This document shows, piece after piece, positions 10,537-32,441 of a stretch of 64,000 nucleotides of DNA. The position numbers and the translations under genes are program-made. Below the pieces are notes generated by a model, which did not search any database, was not told the origin of the DNA, and saw only the letters and a list, made by a program, of their open reading frames with translations. The first letter of the stretch is position 1. Each line of letters begins with the position of its first letter. The stretch comes from an uncultured Clostridia bacterium (lineage in GTDB: Bacteria; Bacillota; Clostridia; UMGS1883): positions 71,713 through 135,712 of the forward strand of contig CANPZO010000002.1 in NCBI GenBank assembly GCA_947589005.1, given 5' to 3'.

Positions 10537-10580
10537 ACCAAAGTTAAGAAAGATATCCAATATGAGAAAGGATGAAAAAA

Positions 10581-13043
10581 ATGGCGAATACAGCACCTCT
10601 TACTAAGGCTCAGCAGGAGCTTAAGGAAGAAATTTTGGGCAAGCTCAGCCGTCACTACGGCCGCACCCTTGACGATGCCACCAAATCTCACATTTATAAG
10701 GCCACGGCTCTTACCGTCCGTGACACGATAATGAAGCGATGGACCGAATACCGCCGCAGTCAGCGCACCGCTCACCGCAAGGAGCTTTTTTACCTGTCCT
10801 TTGAGTTCCTCATGGGCCGCAGCCTAGGCAACAACCTGCTCAACACCGGCCTTACCGAGGACTATGAGGCCGTGCTCGAGAGCATGGGCTGCTCCCTGTC
10901 CGAGATTGCCGCTCAGGAAAGCGACGCGGGCCTTGGCAACGGCGGCCTTGGCAGGCTTGCCGCGTGCTTCCTCGACTCTCTGTCCGCCCTCAATCTCCCC
11001 GCCTTCGGCTGCTCCATACGTTACGAGTACGGCCTGTTCAGGCAGAAGATAGTTGACGGCCAGCAGGTGGAGACCCCCGACAACTGGCTCAGCGACGGCA
11101 CCGTCTGGGAGATACCCCGCCCCGAGGAACAGCAGATAGTCCGCTTTGGCGGCAATGTGGTCACCGACTACGTGGACGGCAAGATGGTCTTCCGCTACGA
11201 AAACACCACCGACGTTGTCGGCGTGCCCTACGATATGCCTATCGCCGGTTATAACGCCAATCTGGTCAACACCCTCCGCCTTTGGTCCTCACGGGCCAAA
11301 AACGACCTCAACATGGCCTATTTCAGCGGCGGCGACTACGTCAAGGCCGTCGAGGAGAAGGCCCTGGCCGAGGCTCTGTCCAAGGTGCTTTATCCCGAGG
11401 ATAACCATCAGGAGGGCAAGGCCCTGCGTCTGCGCCAGCAGTATTTCTTTGTTTCCTGTACGATACAGTGGATAATTTCCCGCTTTAAGCGTCACCATGC
11501 CGGCGAGGGCCTCGAGCATCTGGCCGACTATATAACCATTCATATCAACGACACCCATCCCGCAATCGGTATTCCCGAGATGATGCGCATCCTCATGGAC
11601 GAGGAGGGCATGGGCTGGGACGAGGCTTGGGACATCACCACCAAGGTATTTGCCTACACCAACCACACCGTTATGGCCGAGGCTCTGGAAAAGTGGCCGG
11701 TGGACCTGTTCAAGCGTCTCCTGCCCAGAATTTGGATGATAGTCGAGGAAATGAACCGCCGCCTCGTGGAAAAGCTCCTCGCGGTCTACGGCGAGGACTG
11801 GGGCAAGATAAACTATATGGCTATCGTGGCCAACAACTACATTTCCATGGCCAATATGTGCCTGGCCTCCTGCTACAAGGTCAACGGCGTCAGCGAGCTG
11901 CACACCGATATCCTTAAAAACGACGTTTTCAAGGACTATTACAACCTTTTCCCCAACAAGTTTGAGGCCATCACCAACGGCATCACCTACCGCCGCTGGC
12001 TTCGGCTTGCAAATCCCGAACTCAGCCGGATAATCAGCGACCGCATAGGCGAAAGCTGGATAACAAAGGCCGAGGAGCTGGAGGGAATTGCCAAGTACGC
12101 CGACGACGAGGAGTTCCAGCGGCAGTTCCGTGAGATGAAAAAAATCAAAAAGCAGGAGCTGGCCGCCTATATCAAGGAGCACAACGGTATCGACGTGGAC
12201 CCCGAGTCCATTTTCGACGTGCAGGTAAAGCGCCTTCACGAGTACAAGCGCCAGCTGCTCAACATACTTCATGTGCTTTACCTCTATGATAAGCTCAAGC
12301 ACGACCCCAATTACGATGTTCTGCCCCACACCTTTATCTTCGGCGCCAAGGCTTCTCCCGGATATAAGCGGGCCAAGCTCATTATCCGCCTTATCAACGA
12401 CGTCGCCAAGCTTGTCAATGACGACCCCGACCTGGGCGGCAAGCTGAAGGTAGTATTTATCGAGAACTACGGCGTGTCTCTGGCCCAGAAGATAATCCCC
12501 GCCGCGGACATCTCCGAGCAGATATCCACCGCCGGTCTTGAGGCCAGCGGCACCGGCAACATGAAGTTCATGGCCAACGGCGCCCTCACCATCGGCACAC
12601 TTGACGGCGCCAACGTGGAGATGCTGCGCTGCGTGGGCGACGACAATATCTTCATTTTCGGCATGACCACTCCCGAGGTCAACCGCGCCCTCCGCTTTGA
12701 GGGTGAGACCAGCCAGGATATCTACGCGTCCTCGCCCGACATTCGCCGGATATTGGATATGCTCATCGACGGCACCATCAATCCCACCGACCACCATCTC
12801 TACTACGACCTGTACCAGTCGCTGGTGTTCGGCGACTACGGCGTGGCCGACAAGTTCATGGTAGTCAGGGACTTCCGGGCCTACTGCGCCATCCACGAGA
12901 AGGCCGACCACCAGTACCGTGACCGGAAGCTCTGGACCAGAAAGGCTATCCTTAACGTGGCCTACAGCGGCTTCTTCTCCAGCGACCGCACCATCGAGGA
13001 ATACAATGACAAAATCTGGCACCTGCCCAAGGTGGAGCGGTAA
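10581..13043 (+). CDS. glgP: Glycogen/starch (alpha-glucan) phosphorylase
   Basis: About 820 aa, the usual length for GT35 phosphorylases. It releases glucose 1-phosphate from the non-reducing ends of alpha-1,4-glucans. The pyridoxal-phosphate signature is intact (EASGTGNMKFMANGALTIGT, Lys near residue 662), as are the N-terminal FLMGRSLGNNL and GLGNGGLGRLAACF blocks. The ORF track begins at 10572, but GAAAGG abuts that ATG; the in-frame ATG at 10581 has proper 8-9 nt spacing and is preferred. The gene stands alone between its own promoter and terminator, with no other glycogen genes nearby. A maltodextrin phosphorylase role cannot be excluded. Confidence 0.96.
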   Translation: MANTAPLTKAQQELKEEILGKLSRHYGRTLDDATKSHIYKATALTVRDTIMKRWTEYRRSQRTAHRKELFYLSFEFLMGRSLGNNLLNTGLTEDYEAVLESMGCSLSEIAAQESDAGLGNGGLGRLAACFLDSLSALNLPAFGCSIRYEYGLFRQKIVDGQQVETPDNWLSDGTVWEIPRPEEQQIVRFGGNVVTDYVDGKMVFRYENTTDVVGVPYDMPIAGYNANLVNTLRLWSSRAKNDLNMAYFSGGDYVKAVEEKALAEALSKVLYPEDNHQEGKALRLRQQYFFVSCTIQWIISRFKRHHAGEGLEHLADYITIHINDTHPAIGIPEMMRILMDEEGMGWDEAWDITTKVFAYTNHTVMAEALEKWPVDLFKRLLPRIWMIVEEMNRRLVEKLLAVYGEDWGKINYMAIVANNYISMANMCLASCYKVNGVSELHTDILKNDVFKDYYNLFPNKFEAITNGITYRRWLRLANPELSRIISDRIGESWITKAEELEGIAKYADDEEFQRQFREMKKIKKQELAAYIKEHNGIDVDPESIFDVQVKRLHEYKRQLLNILHVLYLYDKLKHDPNYDVLPHTFIFGAKASPGYKRAKLIIRLINDVAKLVNDDPDLGGKLKVVFIENYGVSLAQKIIPAADISEQISTAGLEASGTGNMKFMANGALTIGTLDGANVEMLRCVGDDNIFIFGMTTPEVNRALRFEGETSQDIYASSPDIRRILDMLIDGTINPTDHHLYYDLYQSLVFGDYGVADKFMVVRDFRAYCAIHEKADHQYRDRKLWTRKAILNVAYSGFFSSDRTIEEYNDKIWHLPKVER

Positions 13044-13057
13044 TGTCGGTATAAATC

Positions 13058-13175
13058 CCAACCAACAATACGGCGTCGGGGCAAAGGTTGACTTTGCCCC
13101 GACGTTTTCTTTTGGGAAAACGTCGGAGCGCGCAGCCTTGCCGCTCCTTTTTCCGATATATTGTTTGTTGGGGCT
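13058..13175 (-). repeat. Diverged inverted copy of the repeat-A/B upstream module
   Basis: The outer arms CCCAACCAACAATA and TATTGTTTGTTGGG pair over about 115 bp. Inside are the glgP terminator and a GGAGCG/CGCTCC hairpin. Read on the minus strand, the order AAAAAGGAG-GGCAAG-GACG-TTTTCC-AAAACGTCGG-CTTTGCCCCGACGCCG parallels 30691-30778. I judge it a relative of that repeat module. Confidence 0.55.
13074..13113 (+). terminator. glgP terminator
   Basis: Perfect 13-bp stem CGTCGGGGCAAAG/CTTTGCCCCGACG, loop GTTGA, then TTTTCTTTT. Confidence 0.9.
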
Positions 13176-13205
13176 TATTGCTCATGGAGTTTGCGTCAGT
13201 TCGAG

Positions 13206-13284: not shown

Positions 13285-13318
13285 ATAAATGAAAATTGCA
13301 ACAGGAGGTAGATATGAC

Positions 13319-15883
13319 ATGAAAAAAAGTAAATTCGTCGGGCTACTGGGGCTGGCGATTTTTTTTGCGCTGGTTTTGAGCTTACCGCCGCGGGGAGCCT
13401 TTGCCGCCGCCGGCTCCGGGAGCTGCGGCGTGGGGGTGCGTTGGACGTTCAGCGCGGCTACGGGGACGCTGACCATCAGCGGTGACGGTGATATGAACAA
13501 CTATTCCTACTATTCGCCCGCGCCCTGGGCCGATATGTACATGAGCATCAGCCGGGTAAATGTGGGCGAGGGTGTTACCTCGGTGGGTAGCTACGCCTTT
13601 TACGAGGGGCGGTGGGAGAGCGAGTATGTCAACCTTCGCTCGGTGTCCCTGCCCTCCACCCTCAAATCGGTGGGCAGTCACGCCTTTTATGAGTGCTCTG
13701 CCCTTACCGGCGTTGAACTGCCGTCCGAAGTGAGGAAAGTGGGAGATTATGCTTTTGCGGACTGTAAGTCTCTCAGAACCGTCACCGGCGGCGACGGCGT
13801 TACTGAAATGGGAGCTTACGCTTTTAGCGATTGTCAGGCTTTGACGGGCTTCGACCTGCCCGCCGGGCTCACGGCTGTTCCCGAGGGACTGTTCGAGGAG
13901 TGTGCCGGTCTGCGCACAGTTACCTTCCCCGATGGGTTGACATCAATAGGGCCGGGAGCTTTCGAGGACTGCGCCCTTCTGGGCGGAGCCGTCCTGCCCG
14001 AAGGTCTGCGGCTTATCGGCGACAAGGCGTTTGAGGGCTGCGCCTCGCTTAAGGCCGTCAACATTCCGTCCACGGTTACATATCTTGGCAGGGGAGCCTA
14101 CGAGGACTGCACCGGTGTGGAGACAGTGACCTACGACGCCGCCGACGCGGAGGTGTCCGCATACTATTACGGCGAGTATGAGCCTCCCTTTGCCGAGTGC
14201 CGGGGAATTACGAGCCTGATAGTCGGCTCGGGCGTAAAGAAAATCAAGGCCTATACCTTTGCCGGTCTGCGGAGCCTTGCCTCCGTTACTCTTGGCGACG
14301 GCGTCGGCGAGATAGGCGAGCGGGCCTTTTACGGCGATTCCCTCATACGGGACGTGTATTACGACGGCTCGACGGCGGATTGGGGCAGGATAAGAATTGC
14401 CTCCGGCAACGAGAGCCTTTCAAGGGCTCAGATACATTATGGCGGCAGCGGCAGCAGCGGCCCCGTTGACCCCGTTGACCCCGTTGACCCTGTTGACCCC
14501 GTTGACCCCGTTGACCCCACGGCCGCAAAGATAACGGTGGGCCGCGCCGCCGGCAGACCCGGCGCCAATGTGACCGTACCCGTTACTCTTTCCGGCAATC
14601 CGGGCATCGCCACGTTCAGCCTTCAAATCAACTTCGATAAAACAAAGCTGACTCCTGTTTCGGTCAAAAAGGGACCGGCCCTTACCGCGGGCACCCTTGT
14701 CAGCAACGTGGACCAGGGCGGCGACATGACGCGCTTCGATTTTGTGACCGCCTACTGGTATAATCCCTCCAATATCAGCGACAACGGCACGGTTCTGAAC
14801 CTTGCGTTCAAAGTTAACGAGACCGCGCCCGAGGGAGAGATACCCCTCACCGTGACTTTCAAGCCCGGAGACGCCGCCAACCAGCACATGGAGGATGTGG
14901 AGCTTAACATCACCGGCGGCGCTGTTGATGTACGCACGGCCATCATGGGGGATGTGAACACCGACGGAGAACTGAATTCCAAGGACGGCCTCAAGCTCAG
15001 CCAGTATCTGGCCAAGTGGGATGTGCCCATGAGCGCCTCCGAGCTTTCCGCCGCCGATGTGGAAAAGGACGGAGAGGTCAACTCCAAGGACGGCCTCAAG
15101 CTCAGTCAGTATCTTGCCAAATGGGACGTGTCTATTCAGGAGCTGGCGCTGCCAATGACCGCCGGCGGTCGCATAGCCTTTGCGGTGGACAGCGTTTCCG
15201 CCTCTGCCGGTGGCTACGTGGACGTGCCGGTGCGCATAACGGCCAACACTGGAGTATCGACCTTCAATCTTGAGCTTCACTATGACAGCTCGGCTCTGAC
15301 GCCTGTCTCCATAACAAAGGGAGAGGCCCTGGCTGACGGCAGTCTTACCAGCAATATACAGCAGGGCGGAGGTAATTACGACTTCGTGACGGCGTACTGG
15401 GTAAATCCTTACAATGTTGCCGCCGACGGCGAGGCGTTTACGGTAAGGTTCAAGGTGGCGGAAAACGCTGCCGGCGCTTTGTCCGTGGAGCTGCTTTACC
15501 CCGAAAACGACCCGCCGCTGACTCAGGGCTTTGAGCAGCTCAGGGTGGAAGCCGCCGGCGGCGTAGTGACCGTTGACGGAACCTCCGCTGAGGATCGCGA
15601 CTATACCGTAACTTCCCTCGTCAAGGAGGACATGGGCTCGTCGGTACGCCTCAGGGCCGGCGTGACCAAAAACACCGGCCGCTCCGGTGAGGACGCGGTG
15701 GTCATCGCCATGTACAAGGACGGCGAGCTGTTGGATATGATATTCATGGAAGCGAGCTTCGCTCAGGGTCAGACCGTGACCTTCGGCGGAACGCTGCCGT
15801 CGGCGCCCGGCGCGGTTTACAAGGCTTTTGTCTGGGACGACCTTGACAGCATGACGCCTTTGAGCAACGCGGCGTCCGAGTGA
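13319..15883 (+). CDS. Secreted LRR - cohesin - dockerin - cohesin protein
   Basis: 854 aa. AGGAGGT (13303-13309) selects ATG 13319 over the upstream in-frame start of the ORF track. A signal peptide (MKKSKFVGLLGLAIFFALV ... AFA) leads. BspA-type leucine-rich repeats follow, about residues 50-355 (repeated units such as IGDKAFEGCASLKAVNIPST). A Pro-Val-Asp linker is encoded by a tandem 9-bp repeat (about 380-400). A cohesin-type domain lies at about 403-540. Two dockerin-type EF-hand repeats lie at about 543-605 (GDVNTDGELNSKDGLKLSQY, then the same core again). A second cohesin-like domain lies at about 615-745, then a beta-rich tail. No SLH, sortase or catalytic motif is visible. A scaffold or adhesion role is inferred. 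Confidence 0.82.
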   Translation: MKKSKFVGLLGLAIFFALVLSLPPRGAFAAAGSGSCGVGVRWTFSAATGTLTISGDGDMNNYSYYSPAPWADMYMSISRVNVGEGVTSVGSYAFYEGRWESEYVNLRSVSLPSTLKSVGSHAFYECSALTGVELPSEVRKVGDYAFADCKSLRTVTGGDGVTEMGAYAFSDCQALTGFDLPAGLTAVPEGLFEECAGLRTVTFPDGLTSIGPGAFEDCALLGGAVLPEGLRLIGDKAFEGCASLKAVNIPSTVTYLGRGAYEDCTGVETVTYDAADAEVSAYYYGEYEPPFAECRGITSLIVGSGVKKIKAYTFAGLRSLASVTLGDGVGEIGERAFYGDSLIRDVYYDGSTADWGRIRIASGNESLSRAQIHYGGSGSSGPVDPVDPVDPVDPVDPVDPTAAKITVGRAAGRPGANVTVPVTLSGNPGIATFSLQINFDKTKLTPVSVKKGPALTAGTLVSNVDQGGDMTRFDFVTAYWYNPSNISDNGTVLNLAFKVNETAPEGEIPLTVTFKPGDAANQHMEDVELNITGGAVDVRTAIMGDVNTDGELNSKDGLKLSQYLAKWDVPMSASELSAADVEKDGEVNSKDGLKLSQYLAKWDVSIQELALPMTAGGRIAFAVDSVSASAGGYVDVPVRITANTGVSTFNLELHYDSSALTPVSITKGEALADGSLTSNIQQGGGNYDFVTAYWVNPYNVAADGEAFTVRFKVAENAAGALSVELLYPENDPPLTQGFEQLRVEAAGGVVTVDGTSAEDRDYTVTSLVKEDMGSSVRLRAGVTKNTGRSGEDAVVIAMYKDGELLDMIFMEASFAQGQTVTFGGTLPSAPGAVYKAFVWDDLDSMTPLSNAASE
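14461..14519 (+). repeat. Tandem 9-bp repeat coding Pro-Val-Asp linker
   Basis: The unit CCCGTTGAC occurs about six times with one C-to-T variant. Nine bases keep the frame, so slippage would only change linker length between the LRR and cohesin parts. Confidence 0.9.
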
Positions 15884-15979
15884 CGGCTTTTCCGCAGGAA
15901 ATGTCGGAACGGAGACCGGCTTTGCCCCGACGCCGACGAGGTTGATTTTAGTTCGTAGTTCAAGGGCATAAATTAAAAA

Positions 15980-16017
15980 GAAAAACCGTCTTTTTCTCGT
16001 AAAAAGGCGGTTTTTCC
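15980..16017 (+). terminator. Terminator inside repeat copy A
   Basis: Stem AAAAACCGTCTTTTT/AAAAAGGCGGTTTTT with one T-G mismatch pair, followed by TTTTTCC. It probably ends the LRR-cohesin transcript, and A/T runs on both sides allow bidirectional use. The same structure occurs at 30821-30859. Confidence 0.75.
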
Positions 16018-16066
16018 ACATCAATTCACAAACTTGATTGTATTGCCGGATTTATCAATACATAAA

Positions 16067-16228
16067 TTTGGCTTAAATAAAGGTTTTCAGCCAAATGGGG
16101 CCCCCGCAAAACGGCGAAGCCGATTTTGTGGGGAAAAGGAGTCACAGCGAGGTGAGCCGAGTTTTGATTTTTTAATTAAAACTCGCGATACCGAGCTTGT
16201 GACGACGCAGGTCTGCGCCATTTTTTTA
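16067..16228 (+). ncRNA. Candidate structured RNA, copy A
   Basis: Ordered helices: TTTGGCT/AGCCAAA (16067-16095); CCCCGCAAAA-CGGC-GAA-GCCG-ATTTTGTGGGG (16102-16133); an outer helix GTCACA/TGTGAC (16141-16146 with 16198-16203) continuing through opposed GCGAGG/CCGAGC with two G-A juxtapositions; inside it CGAGTTTTGATT/AATTAAAACTCG (16158-16185); and a final CGCA/TGCG hairpin with TTTTTTT (16221-16227). An upstream TTGATT or TTGTAT with an AT-rich -10 could start it near 16070. Copies B and C keep these helices with compensatory base changes. I do not recognise the family. Confidence 0.65.
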
Positions 16229-16248
16229 TAGCCCCTCTTATTGTATAT

Positions 16249-30363: not shown

Positions 30364-30406
30364 AGCGGTACCGCCTTCGACGGCTTGTTTGTCCATCTCT
30401 GTGAGT

Positions 30407-30433
30407 CGGCGGCTTGAGGGCAAGCCGCCCTAC
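30407..30433 (+). repeat. CCCTAC palindrome, copy 3
   Basis: CGGCGGCTTGAGGGCAAGCC followed by GCCCTAC. Matches 57641-57668 over 27 bases. Forms an inverted pair with copy 4. Confidence 0.85.
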
Positions 30434-30457
30434 GGTGCACTAACGTAACAAAGTGGC

Positions 30458-30485
30458 GTAGGGCGGGCTGCCCTCAGCCCGCCGT
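30458..30485 (-). repeat. CCCTAC palindrome, copy 4 (inverted)
   Basis: The minus strand reads GACGGCGGGCTGAGGGCAGC then CCGCCCTAC, the same design as copy 3 with compensated stem changes. The two copies face each other across 24 bp. Confidence 0.8.
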
Positions 30486-30499
30486 CCCTCATGACGGAC

Positions 30500-30640
30500 A
30501 AAAAACTCGCAAAAGGTTGGTATCGCGTCGTCACAAATCTCGCATCCTTGGCGACAAATTAAAAATTTGTCGCCAGAGTCGCTCGATTGTTCCTCCTTTC
30601 CCCAAAAACCTCATTTTGAGGTTTTTGGGGGCCCTTTTAA
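30500..30640 (-). ncRNA. Candidate structured RNA, diverged copy C (minus strand)
   Basis: On the minus strand: CCCCAAAAACCTC-AAAAT-GAGGTTTTTGGGG (30630-30600), then AAAGGAG, an outer helix AATCGAGC/GCGAGATT with the same opposed CGAG loop, an inner hairpin GGCGACAAATT/AATTTGTCGCC, then TTGTGACGACGCG and a T-rich tail (GAGTTTTTTG). Stem sequences differ almost wholly from copies A and B while pairing is kept. Two ORFs called here (30517-30813 and 30531-30866) are judged spurious. Confidence 0.55.
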
Positions 30641-30820
30641 GCCGTCGCGAGGGCCGCTTTAGGCCCGAAGCAGGCGACGCGAATGTGACCTTTTGCGAAA
30701 AAGGAGGGGCAAGCCATCGAGTGACGACTTTTCCGCAGAAAATGTCGGAACGGAGACTGGCTTTGCCCCGACGCCGCCGAGTGGTGATTTTCGTTCGTAG
30801 TTCAAGGGCATAAAATAAAA

Positions 30821-30859
30821 AGGAAAACCGTCTTTTTCTCGTAAAAAGGCGGTTTTTCC
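30821..30859 (+). terminator. Terminator inside repeat copy B
   Basis: GAAAACCGTCTTTTT/AAAAAGGCGGTTTTT, then TTTTTCC; the counterpart of 15980-16017. Confidence 0.7.
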
Positions 30860-30908
30860 ACATCAATTCACAAATTTGATTGTATTGCCGACTTTATCAA
30901 TACATAAA

Positions 30909-31071
30909 TTTGGCTTAAATAGAGGTTTTCAGCCAAAATGGGGTCCCCGCAAAACGGCGAAGCCGATTTTGTGGGGAAAAGGAGTCACAGCGAGGTAAGC
31001 CGAGTTTCGATTTTTAAATCGAAACTTGCGATACCGAGCTTGTGACGACGCAGGTCTGTGCGACTTTTTTT
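30909..31071 (+). ncRNA. Candidate structured RNA, copy B
   Basis: Same helices as copy A: TTTGGCT/AGCCAAA, the CCCCGCAAAA hairpin, GTCACA/TGTGAC with opposed CGAG motifs, and the inner stem GTTTCGATTT/AAATCGAAAC. Copy A has T-A where B has C-G, and G-T where B has G-C, so changes are pair-preserving. Ends in TTTTTTT (31065-31071). About 125 nt separate its end from the aminopeptidase start, with a separate promoter between. Confidence 0.65.
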
Positions 31072-31113
31072 ACAGCCCCTTATGTCCATTTTTTGTTTTT
31101 GTCATTTTTTCTC

Positions 31114-31142
31114 TTTACAAGCGGAAGATTTTGTTATATAAT
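31114..31142 (+). promoter_or_regulatory. Promoter of the aminopeptidase P gene
   Basis: TTTACA (31114-31119), 17-bp spacer, TATAAT (31137-31142). Confidence 0.75.
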
Positions 31143-31196
31143 TAGAATGAAAAATTACGGGGCGTCGCCCCGGATAAATATACGGGAGGAATTTTC

Positions 31197-32441
31197 ATGG
31201 ACAGAAGCTTTCATATGGAAAACAGACAGAGTCTTTACAAAAGACTGCCGAAGGGCAGCCTTGCCGTGATATTCAGCGGCTCCGCGCCGCGAAAGACCGC
31301 CGACGAGTACTACCCATTTTTCGCTGACCGCAGCTTTGTTTACCTGACCGGCGTGGAAAAGCAGGGCCTTATCCTGCTGGCCCGCATCGACGAGGGCGGC
31401 GCCAGCGAGACCCTTTACATACTTCCGCCGGACCTTATAGCCGAACGCTGGACCGGTGTCCGCATCAAGGCCGACGAGGTGCTGGAAAAGTCCGGCATAA
31501 GCGATTGCCGCTATGTGGACGATTTCCCCGCCGACCTTAAAAGGCTGGCCGAAAGCGGCAATTATAACAGCCTTTACCTTGACCTCCACAAGCTGACGCC
31601 CGACGAGGCCCCCAGCCCCGCCTACCGTCAGGCCGAGGAGGCGGCGCGGCGCTACCCCTTCCTTCGGATAGGCAATCTCAACCCCCATATCCGCACCCTG
31701 CGTACCATAAAAAAGCCCTGCGAGATAGAGGCCATGCGCAAGGCCGAGACCATAACCGCCGAGGGCATCATGGCCATGATGAAGGCGTCGAAGCCCGGTA
31801 TGTACGAGTATCAGTACAAGGCCGTCTGGGACTATACCCTCGCTCAGCACGGCGTACTCAGCCCCATGTTCCCCTCCATAATCTGCGCGGGGAAGAACAA
31901 TTTCTGCATACATTACTATGACTACCGGGGCCAGGCCCACGACGGCGACATGGTGCTCAACGATGTTGGCGCCGTATGGGACAACGTGGGCACCGACGTT
32001 TCCCGCGGGTGGCCGGTCAACGGCAAATACAGCGAAAAGCAGCGGCTGCTGTACCAATGCGCCTACAATACCTCCAACCATATGTTCGGCATCATAAAGC
32101 CCGGTATGCTAATGAAGGACGTGGACGCCACCGTCCGCAAATTTAACTTCGGCCAGCTCAAGGAGCTGGGCCTCTGCGACCGGCTTGAGGACGTTGGCAA
32201 ATATATCTGGCACGGCGGCGCTCACCATGTGGGCTATGACACCCACGACGTGGTCAACTGCCCGCCGGATATGCCCATCGCGCCGGGCATGGTGTTCTGC
32301 GTGGACGTGGGCATATACTGCGAGGAATGGGGCATAGGCTTCCGCCTGGAGGACAACTGCCTTGTCACCGAAAATGGCTGCGAAAATCTTTCCGTTGCGA
32401 CTCCCCGTTCCATCGAGGACATCGAGGCCGTCATGAGATAA
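31197..32441 (+). CDS. pepP: Xaa-Pro aminopeptidase (M24B)
   Basis: 414 aa. The N-terminal AMP_N domain (PKGSLAVIFSGSAPRKTADE, YPFFADRSFVYLTGV) is followed by the M24 pita-bread domain. Metal ligands are seen in NDVGAVWDNVGTDVSRGWPV (two Asp), HGGAHHVGYDTHD (His) and RLEDNCLVTENG (last Glu). At the fourth ligand position the common VEPG is CVDVG here, an Asp for Glu. It removes N-terminal residues before proline in the cytoplasm. GGGAGGA precedes the start. First gene of a plus-strand run including the SGNH, VanZ and HAD genes. Confidence 0.9.
   Translation: MDRSFHMENRQSLYKRLPKGSLAVIFSGSAPRKTADEYYPFFADRSFVYLTGVEKQGLILLARIDEGGASETLYILPPDLIAERWTGVRIKADEVLEKSGISDCRYVDDFPADLKRLAESGNYNSLYLDLHKLTPDEAPSPAYRQAEEAARRYPFLRIGNLNPHIRTLRTIKKPCEIEAMRKAETITAEGIMAMMKASKPGMYEYQYKAVWDYTLAQHGVLSPMFPSIICAGKNNFCIHYYDYRGQAHDGDMVLNDVGAVWDNVGTDVSRGWPVNGKYSEKQRLLYQCAYNTSNHMFGIIKPGMLMKDVDATVRKFNFGQLKELGLCDRLEDVGKYIWHGGAHHVGYDTHDVVNCPPDMPIAPGMVFCVDVGIYCEEWGIGFRLEDNCLVTENGCENLSVATPRSIEDIEAVMR

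Follow-up and report, generated by a model that had tools for sequence, protein, structure and literature searches.

We consider it likely that the segment behind glgP is a solitary, diverged copy of a module called M, that M makes up non-coding palindromic repeats found across the class at gene 3' ends and probably non-autonomous, and that this copy acts as the glgP terminator. M belongs with repeats of the REP, BOX and MITE kind, as a previously undescribed form. The window, i.e. the whole stretch of 64,000 nt analysed here (C2:71713-135712), comes from a draft genome of 2.1 Mb in 38 contigs. The features around glgP were as follows.

10572-13043, plus strand: glgP-type glycogen phosphorylase gene (open reading frame; gene name as in an earlier sequence-only reading).
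13057-13070, plus strand: left arm of an outer stem around the module, CCCAACCAACAATA (from sequence; paired in the minimum-energy fold).
13072-13106, plus strand: predicted intrinsic terminator of glgP, a 15-bp hairpin then TTCTTTT (pattern scan).
13073-13151, minus strand: M module behind glgP, with AAAAGGAG, internal hairpins and GACGC (covariance model R3, alignment to copy B, identity within the genome).
13159-13173, plus strand: right arm of the outer stem, TATTGTTTGTTGGGG (from sequence; paired in the minimum-energy fold).

The stop codon of glgP occupies 13041-13043, about 30 nt ahead of the M module. Two larger repeats of the window, copies A and B, served for comparison.

15877-16235, plus strand: copy A, a truncated composite in which the end of X, a P part and an R-type M are followed by the inverted end GGGGCTATAAAAAA.
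16134-16208, plus strand: R-type M of copy A (R3, E = 1.7e-7).
30525-31079, plus strand: copy B, a composite with an inverted R-type M on its left, followed by an X-type M, the P part, a second R-type M and a right inverted end (31066-31079).
30525-30600, minus strand: inverted R-type M, left of copy B (R3, E = 3.1e-5).
30699-30774, plus strand: X-type M of copy B, the sequence with which the glgP segment had originally been compared (R3, E = 6.2e-18, in the training set).
30775-30934, plus strand: P part of copy B (repeat block q255-414, shared by many copies), the sequence of which was read as a terminator-like hairpin usable in both directions.
30977-31051, plus strand: R-type M of copy B, initially called the RNA module (R3, E = 1.3e-6).

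The sequence-only reading had taken the glgP segment for an inverted, diverged form of the module in copies A and B. For copy B this was borne out: the reverse complement of 13058-13175 aligned to 30401-31200 with a local score of 54 (1000 dinucleotide shuffles: mean 19.3, sd 2.4, maximum 33), the homologous region being 13073-13151 on the minus strand and the blocks following the proposed order. For copy A, alignment did no better than shuffled sequence; only the 16-mer CTTTGCCCCGACGCCG aligned (score 32, shuffle maximum 36), a short match that shuffles could equal, as the 5' half of the module is missing from A. Three other copies from the same genome displayed 79-80 % identity to the glgP copy over ~84 nt (E = 3.7e-14, 1.3e-13 and 8.4e-13) and were nearer to it than B (72 %). 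R3 matched the glgP copy with E = 2.5e-20; since this copy and the X-type M of B are both among the 15 R3 training sequences, their E-values describe rather than test, and independent support for the glgP copy comes from the shuffle test and the 79-80 % identity.

The 137 nt from 13044 to 13180 folded at -65.3 kcal/mol (z -6.9), with none of 200 shuffles as low. Within it, downstream of the gene, the transcribed strand at 13072-13106 displays a GC-rich hairpin and then a T-run, which probably constitute a good intrinsic terminator, as predicted for the glgP coding strand. The same hairpin was present in A and B in decayed form (GTCGGAACGGAG opposite CTTTGCCCCGAC) and was intact in standalone copies and in those of other genera, which is why the intact form is read as older: it is probably ancestral and the form found in A and B derived. 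The earlier proposal that a repeat had been taken over as a terminator stands as regards the dispersed, inverted and diverged nature of the module, the terminator-like hairpin at glgP and the repeats at 3' ends; its direction is probably reversed. That the last block of the repeat "has become" half of the glgP stem is probably wrong, as it is A and B that carry the decayed hairpin.

The M core, AAAAGGAG...GACGC, spans about 80 nt and its pairing is backed by covariation. It was aligned from copies of the window's genus, of two rabbit-gut Clostridia MAGs and, from the same order, of two genomes belonging to a different family. The closing helix (columns 8-14 with 75-81) had 99 % of its cells paired and double changes at three out of seven pairs; none of 500 shuffles reached its paired cells or its covariation score, and 12 out of 500 reached its number of doubly changed pairs. 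The sole unpaired cell belonged to the glgP copy, which displays instead a perfect local hairpin (columns 53-64 with 73-84), mismatched in about half of the M copies. As modelled, M comprises 79 positions and at least two helices, with a hairpin stem of 13 bp in which CGTC is paired. Within the retrieved stretches of this genome with repeat matches, R3 matched 77 times at E <= 0.01, with overlap between some of the matches; E-values from shortened models are rough. No Rfam family exceeded its gathering cut-off over M or D2 (a further part of the repeat, described below), and only tRNA did so in those loci. M was likewise without mention in the literature found on tRNA-adjacent repeats. Besides Rfam 15, to which this absence of a match refers, PMC8040213 lists thousands of candidate structured RNAs.

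Copies A and B are 93-94 % identical, the right end of A lying at 16235, and the stretch that they share upstream of the R-type M runs from 15877 to ~16092, close to the ~190 bp given in the earlier reading. The R-type M of A (16134-16208) and that of B (30977-31051) were matched by R3 without being in its training set, so the supposed RNA module represents one branch of a family and the upstream module another. To regard the former as a separate unit was too narrow: it is itself a diverged M, of a family extending beyond the genus and found at tRNA 3' ends. All three copies indeed lie at gene 3' ends or in spacers, the glgP copy behind its stop codon, A holding a TGA, and B in the spacer that separates a stop (30288) from a start (31197). 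The TGA in A (15881-15883) is that of gene 13289-15883, whose stop codon is therefore supplied by the repeat. The P-part hairpin of copy B was not listed by the terminator scan. A further palindrome, GGCGGCTTGAGGGCAAGCCGCCC...GGGCGGGCTGCCCTCAGCCCGCC, was seen at 30404-30500 and beside composites at three other loci (L030, L037, L081); it may represent another module type.

A BLAST search of the same genome with a 430-nt query from copy B returned at least 65 segments among the matches listed. The copies are mosaics that combine inverted R, X, P and R parts in different ways, many of them ending in GGGGCYGTAAAAAA, a 14-bp inverted end which bounds M-holding mosaic repeats in the window's genus. 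The exact 14-mer occurred 54 times in the window's genome and 10-64 times in other genus members; the family's other genera had 0-1 occurrences, two genomes from a neighbouring family had six and two, and genomes elsewhere had 0-3. Left and right inverted ends formed 22 pairs (at most one mismatch), mostly 225-760 bp apart and in one case 39 bp, so that the composites possess the matching terminal inverted repeats typical of MITEs. The glgP copy itself lacks such repeats, its GGGGCYGTAAAAAA ends being absent, and bears no mark of its route of arrival. No repeated flanks indicative of target site duplication were found among the 22 pairs or at stop-adjacent ends, and viral contigs contained no inverted ends. 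Y1 transposases, the sole enzyme family searched in this genome, were encoded at two sites; neither had M nearby, and the Y1 enzyme was dropped as a candidate mobiliser. Six contigs (C2, C17, C20, C21, C24 and C31) have ends inside repeats, which makes the draft copy number probably too low. At G000:C12:72826 (L196), a composite was split inside its P hairpin by an apparent IS3-type insertion sequence, recognised by eye. Tandem R-type 5' hairpins, ~72 bp apart, were seen at the contig ends G000:C28:21908-22160 and C5:36-221 (L214, L140).

Position relative to stop codons was assessed for 87 inverted ends with a simple codon-usage gene caller, whose calls are approximate; one end had no neighbouring gene, leaving 86. 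Seventy of them, far more than by chance, faced the 3' end of a gene at a median distance of 9 nt from its stop codon, and 16 faced gene 5' ends (median 117.5 nt). Fifty-five out of 86 lay within 16 nt of a stop, compared to 8.6 % of random intergenic points of the window. Spacers containing the P core (n = 38) were convergent in 22 cases, tandem in 16 and never divergent, compared to 5 convergent, 27 tandem and 4 divergent among the window's own 36 spacers (convergent excess p = 1e-4, divergent deficit p = 0.05); in tandem spacers the P core was oriented equally often each way (8 vs 8). This two-way placement, the position behind stops and tRNAs and the solitary sites with intact hairpins could also result if M were a strong terminator under selection that is not mobile and was passed from one gene end to another through gene conversion or segmental duplication, and the 8:8 orientation suits a symmetric terminator. 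We hold this to be unlikely: about 30 nt would suffice for such a purpose, yet 80 nt of M and ~75 nt of conserved flank were kept across families, and neither the 14-bp inverted ends nor insertion between a tRNA CCA and its native terminator (see below) would be expected.

Under the preferred reading, M modules would have spread by insertion as non-autonomous elements and would settle, or be kept, at gene 3' ends, perhaps because they terminate transcription in the cell. In the window's genus, M lies within longer mosaic repeats that have 14-bp inverted ends and are set directly after stop codons. These composites offer hairpins and T-runs in both directions, and could thereby stop transcription arriving from either neighbour. 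The glgP site has lost its composite or never had one, and keeps one module with a hairpin perfect on the coding strand as the putative glgP terminator. Homology, copy number, covariation and position are computed results, on which termination, spread by insertion and retention are inferred.

The glgP site itself varies in the genus. Orthologues of glgP were found in six out of seven members searched; directly behind the gene, G001, G002, G003 and G005 displayed composites that start in minus orientation and differ in their parts, and G006 and G007 displayed unrelated hairpins. This suggests turnover by repeated gain, loss or exchange. In the X module of the G005 composite, the hairpin is nearly intact. 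Orthology at the glgP site was not retained on the basis of X similarity: the best match of the glgP copy was a locus behind another gene in a rabbit-gut MAG (L113) and not the G005 composite (score 111 vs 69). At orthologous PepP starts, compared in G001 and G002, the former displayed a different composite with a tRNA-Leu and the latter no element.

Beyond the genus, M was detected in 66 out of 391 sampled genomes of the class, representing 48 genera, with at most 12 candidates per genome scored, a cap which conceals the real copy numbers. D2, another part of the basic repeat (GGCGTACC..GTACGCC within a long stem), was modelled from the window's genus, G021 and G036 and was detected in 58 of the 391 genomes (34 genera); it was not found in the window itself. 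Its structure was set by hand, RNAalifold's own fold having overlooked the long helices; with this structure 94.5 % of cells pair and eight pairs are doubly changed. Among 63 M copies from other genera, picked by score, 35 (17 genomes) adjoined a complete tRNA 3' end, i.e. its CCA, at a distance of -1 to +3 nt. In most of these junctions exactly one base was common to both; the tRNAs were of many kinds and M lay on the opposite strand.

The covarying helices of M and the neighbouring D2, and the tight junction with tRNA 3' ends, would also be compatible with M being part of a self-acting structured RNA, e.g. a tRNA or mRNA trailer, whose 3'-end position reflects its function. We regard this as quite improbable, given the lack of orientation bias to upstream genes (8 same, 8 opposite) and of any Rfam match above cut-off over M, and given mosaic rearrangement and 50-100 copies, which would be odd for a trans-acting RNA.

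Four locus arrays had the last 18-19 nt of the adjacent tRNA repeated before another M (L285, Ala, 18 nt; L271 and L304, Pro, 18 nt; L310, Lys, 19 nt). Within a single locus, L285 and L310 each displayed one CCA directly followed by the native terminator, and a second CCA followed by a ~200-nt M unit and then the native terminator; these would represent a near-empty and a filled site side by side, in whichever order they arose. Stretches of ~150-190 bp separate the tRNA from its repeated 18-19 nt end in L285 (124-310), L310 and L304; those of L285 and L310 have GGGACGA..CCC in common and are perhaps a second unit type using tRNA ends. Many genomic islands use the T-loop-to-CCA part of tRNA genes, and the repeated tRNA ends raise the possibility, a doubtful one, that M enters there via a site-specific recombinase, gene-end copies being secondary. 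M adjoins many kinds of tRNA, however, and every repeated piece matches the tRNA next to it, a pattern not expected from a fixed attachment site. As this concerns the entry route, it can hold together with the preferred reading. Very improbable, in our view, is that M units are RNA-copied, a reverse transcriptase using an M transcript as template to extend the CCA of any mature tRNA (and, in the window's genus, the 3' ends of other RNAs), with insertion of the product at the end of the gene concerned; such a route would agree with the exact junction at the CCA of many kinds of tRNA and with the repeated 18-nt tRNA ends.

Sites of M are at present annotated as unlabelled intergenic DNA only. 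A folded repeat in many genera of one class, absent from Rfam 15 and placed at the final base of many different tRNA genes and shortly after stop codons, would show selfish palindromes becoming standard transcription terminators, and the tRNA CCA provides a concrete site for asking how gene-less repeats spread.

Compared to known systems, M resembles tRNA-integrating genomic islands in its junction at the tRNA 3' end and in the 18-nt tRNA end repeated in some arrays, but its units of ~200 nt contain no genes and one family uses many tRNA kinds. Like MITEs, the composites are short and non-coding, with matching inverted ends and no enzyme of their own; they differ in that no target duplication was found and that their interior is strongly structured and interchangeable, and no partner transposase turned up among the Y1 enzymes searched, so that M is at most a candidate MITE. 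M shares with REPs and BIMEs a palindromic, multi-copy and intergenic nature and a location near gene 3' ends. REPs occur mostly in convergent or same-direction spacers and in few divergent ones; those between convergent genes are mostly separated by less than 20 bp from the 3' end of either neighbour, and REP termini sometimes give the stop codon (PMC3733652). CGTC-REPs are 20-40 bp long with stems of 8-9 bp starting with A-T pairs, have no known dedicated transposase, and are listed in Proteobacteria, Chlorobi, Bacteroidetes, Spirochaetes and Thermotogae (PMC3733652). The hairpins of M also start with CGTC, but M falls outside the CGTC-REP definition of a single 20-40 bp stem-loop with an 8-9 bp A-T-start stem and an unpaired CGTC tag: it is ~80 nt long with several helices, lies within 225-760 bp composites, adjoins tRNA CCA ends and occurs in genomes of the window's class. 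BOX consists of A, B and C modules and is found in pneumococcus and related streptococci (PMC3049150). M is likened to BOX, RUP and SPRITE, by description and not by sequence, as a modular or hairpin-rich non-coding repeat; in Streptococcus pneumoniae these three are enriched between convergent genes, some encode a stop codon, with glgP among the genes named, and they were proposed as terminators (PMC3049150). Copy A, which supplies a stop codon within 15877-15883, behaves as REP and BOX repeats sometimes do, and BOX overlaps the 3' end of the pneumococcal glgP (PMC3049150).
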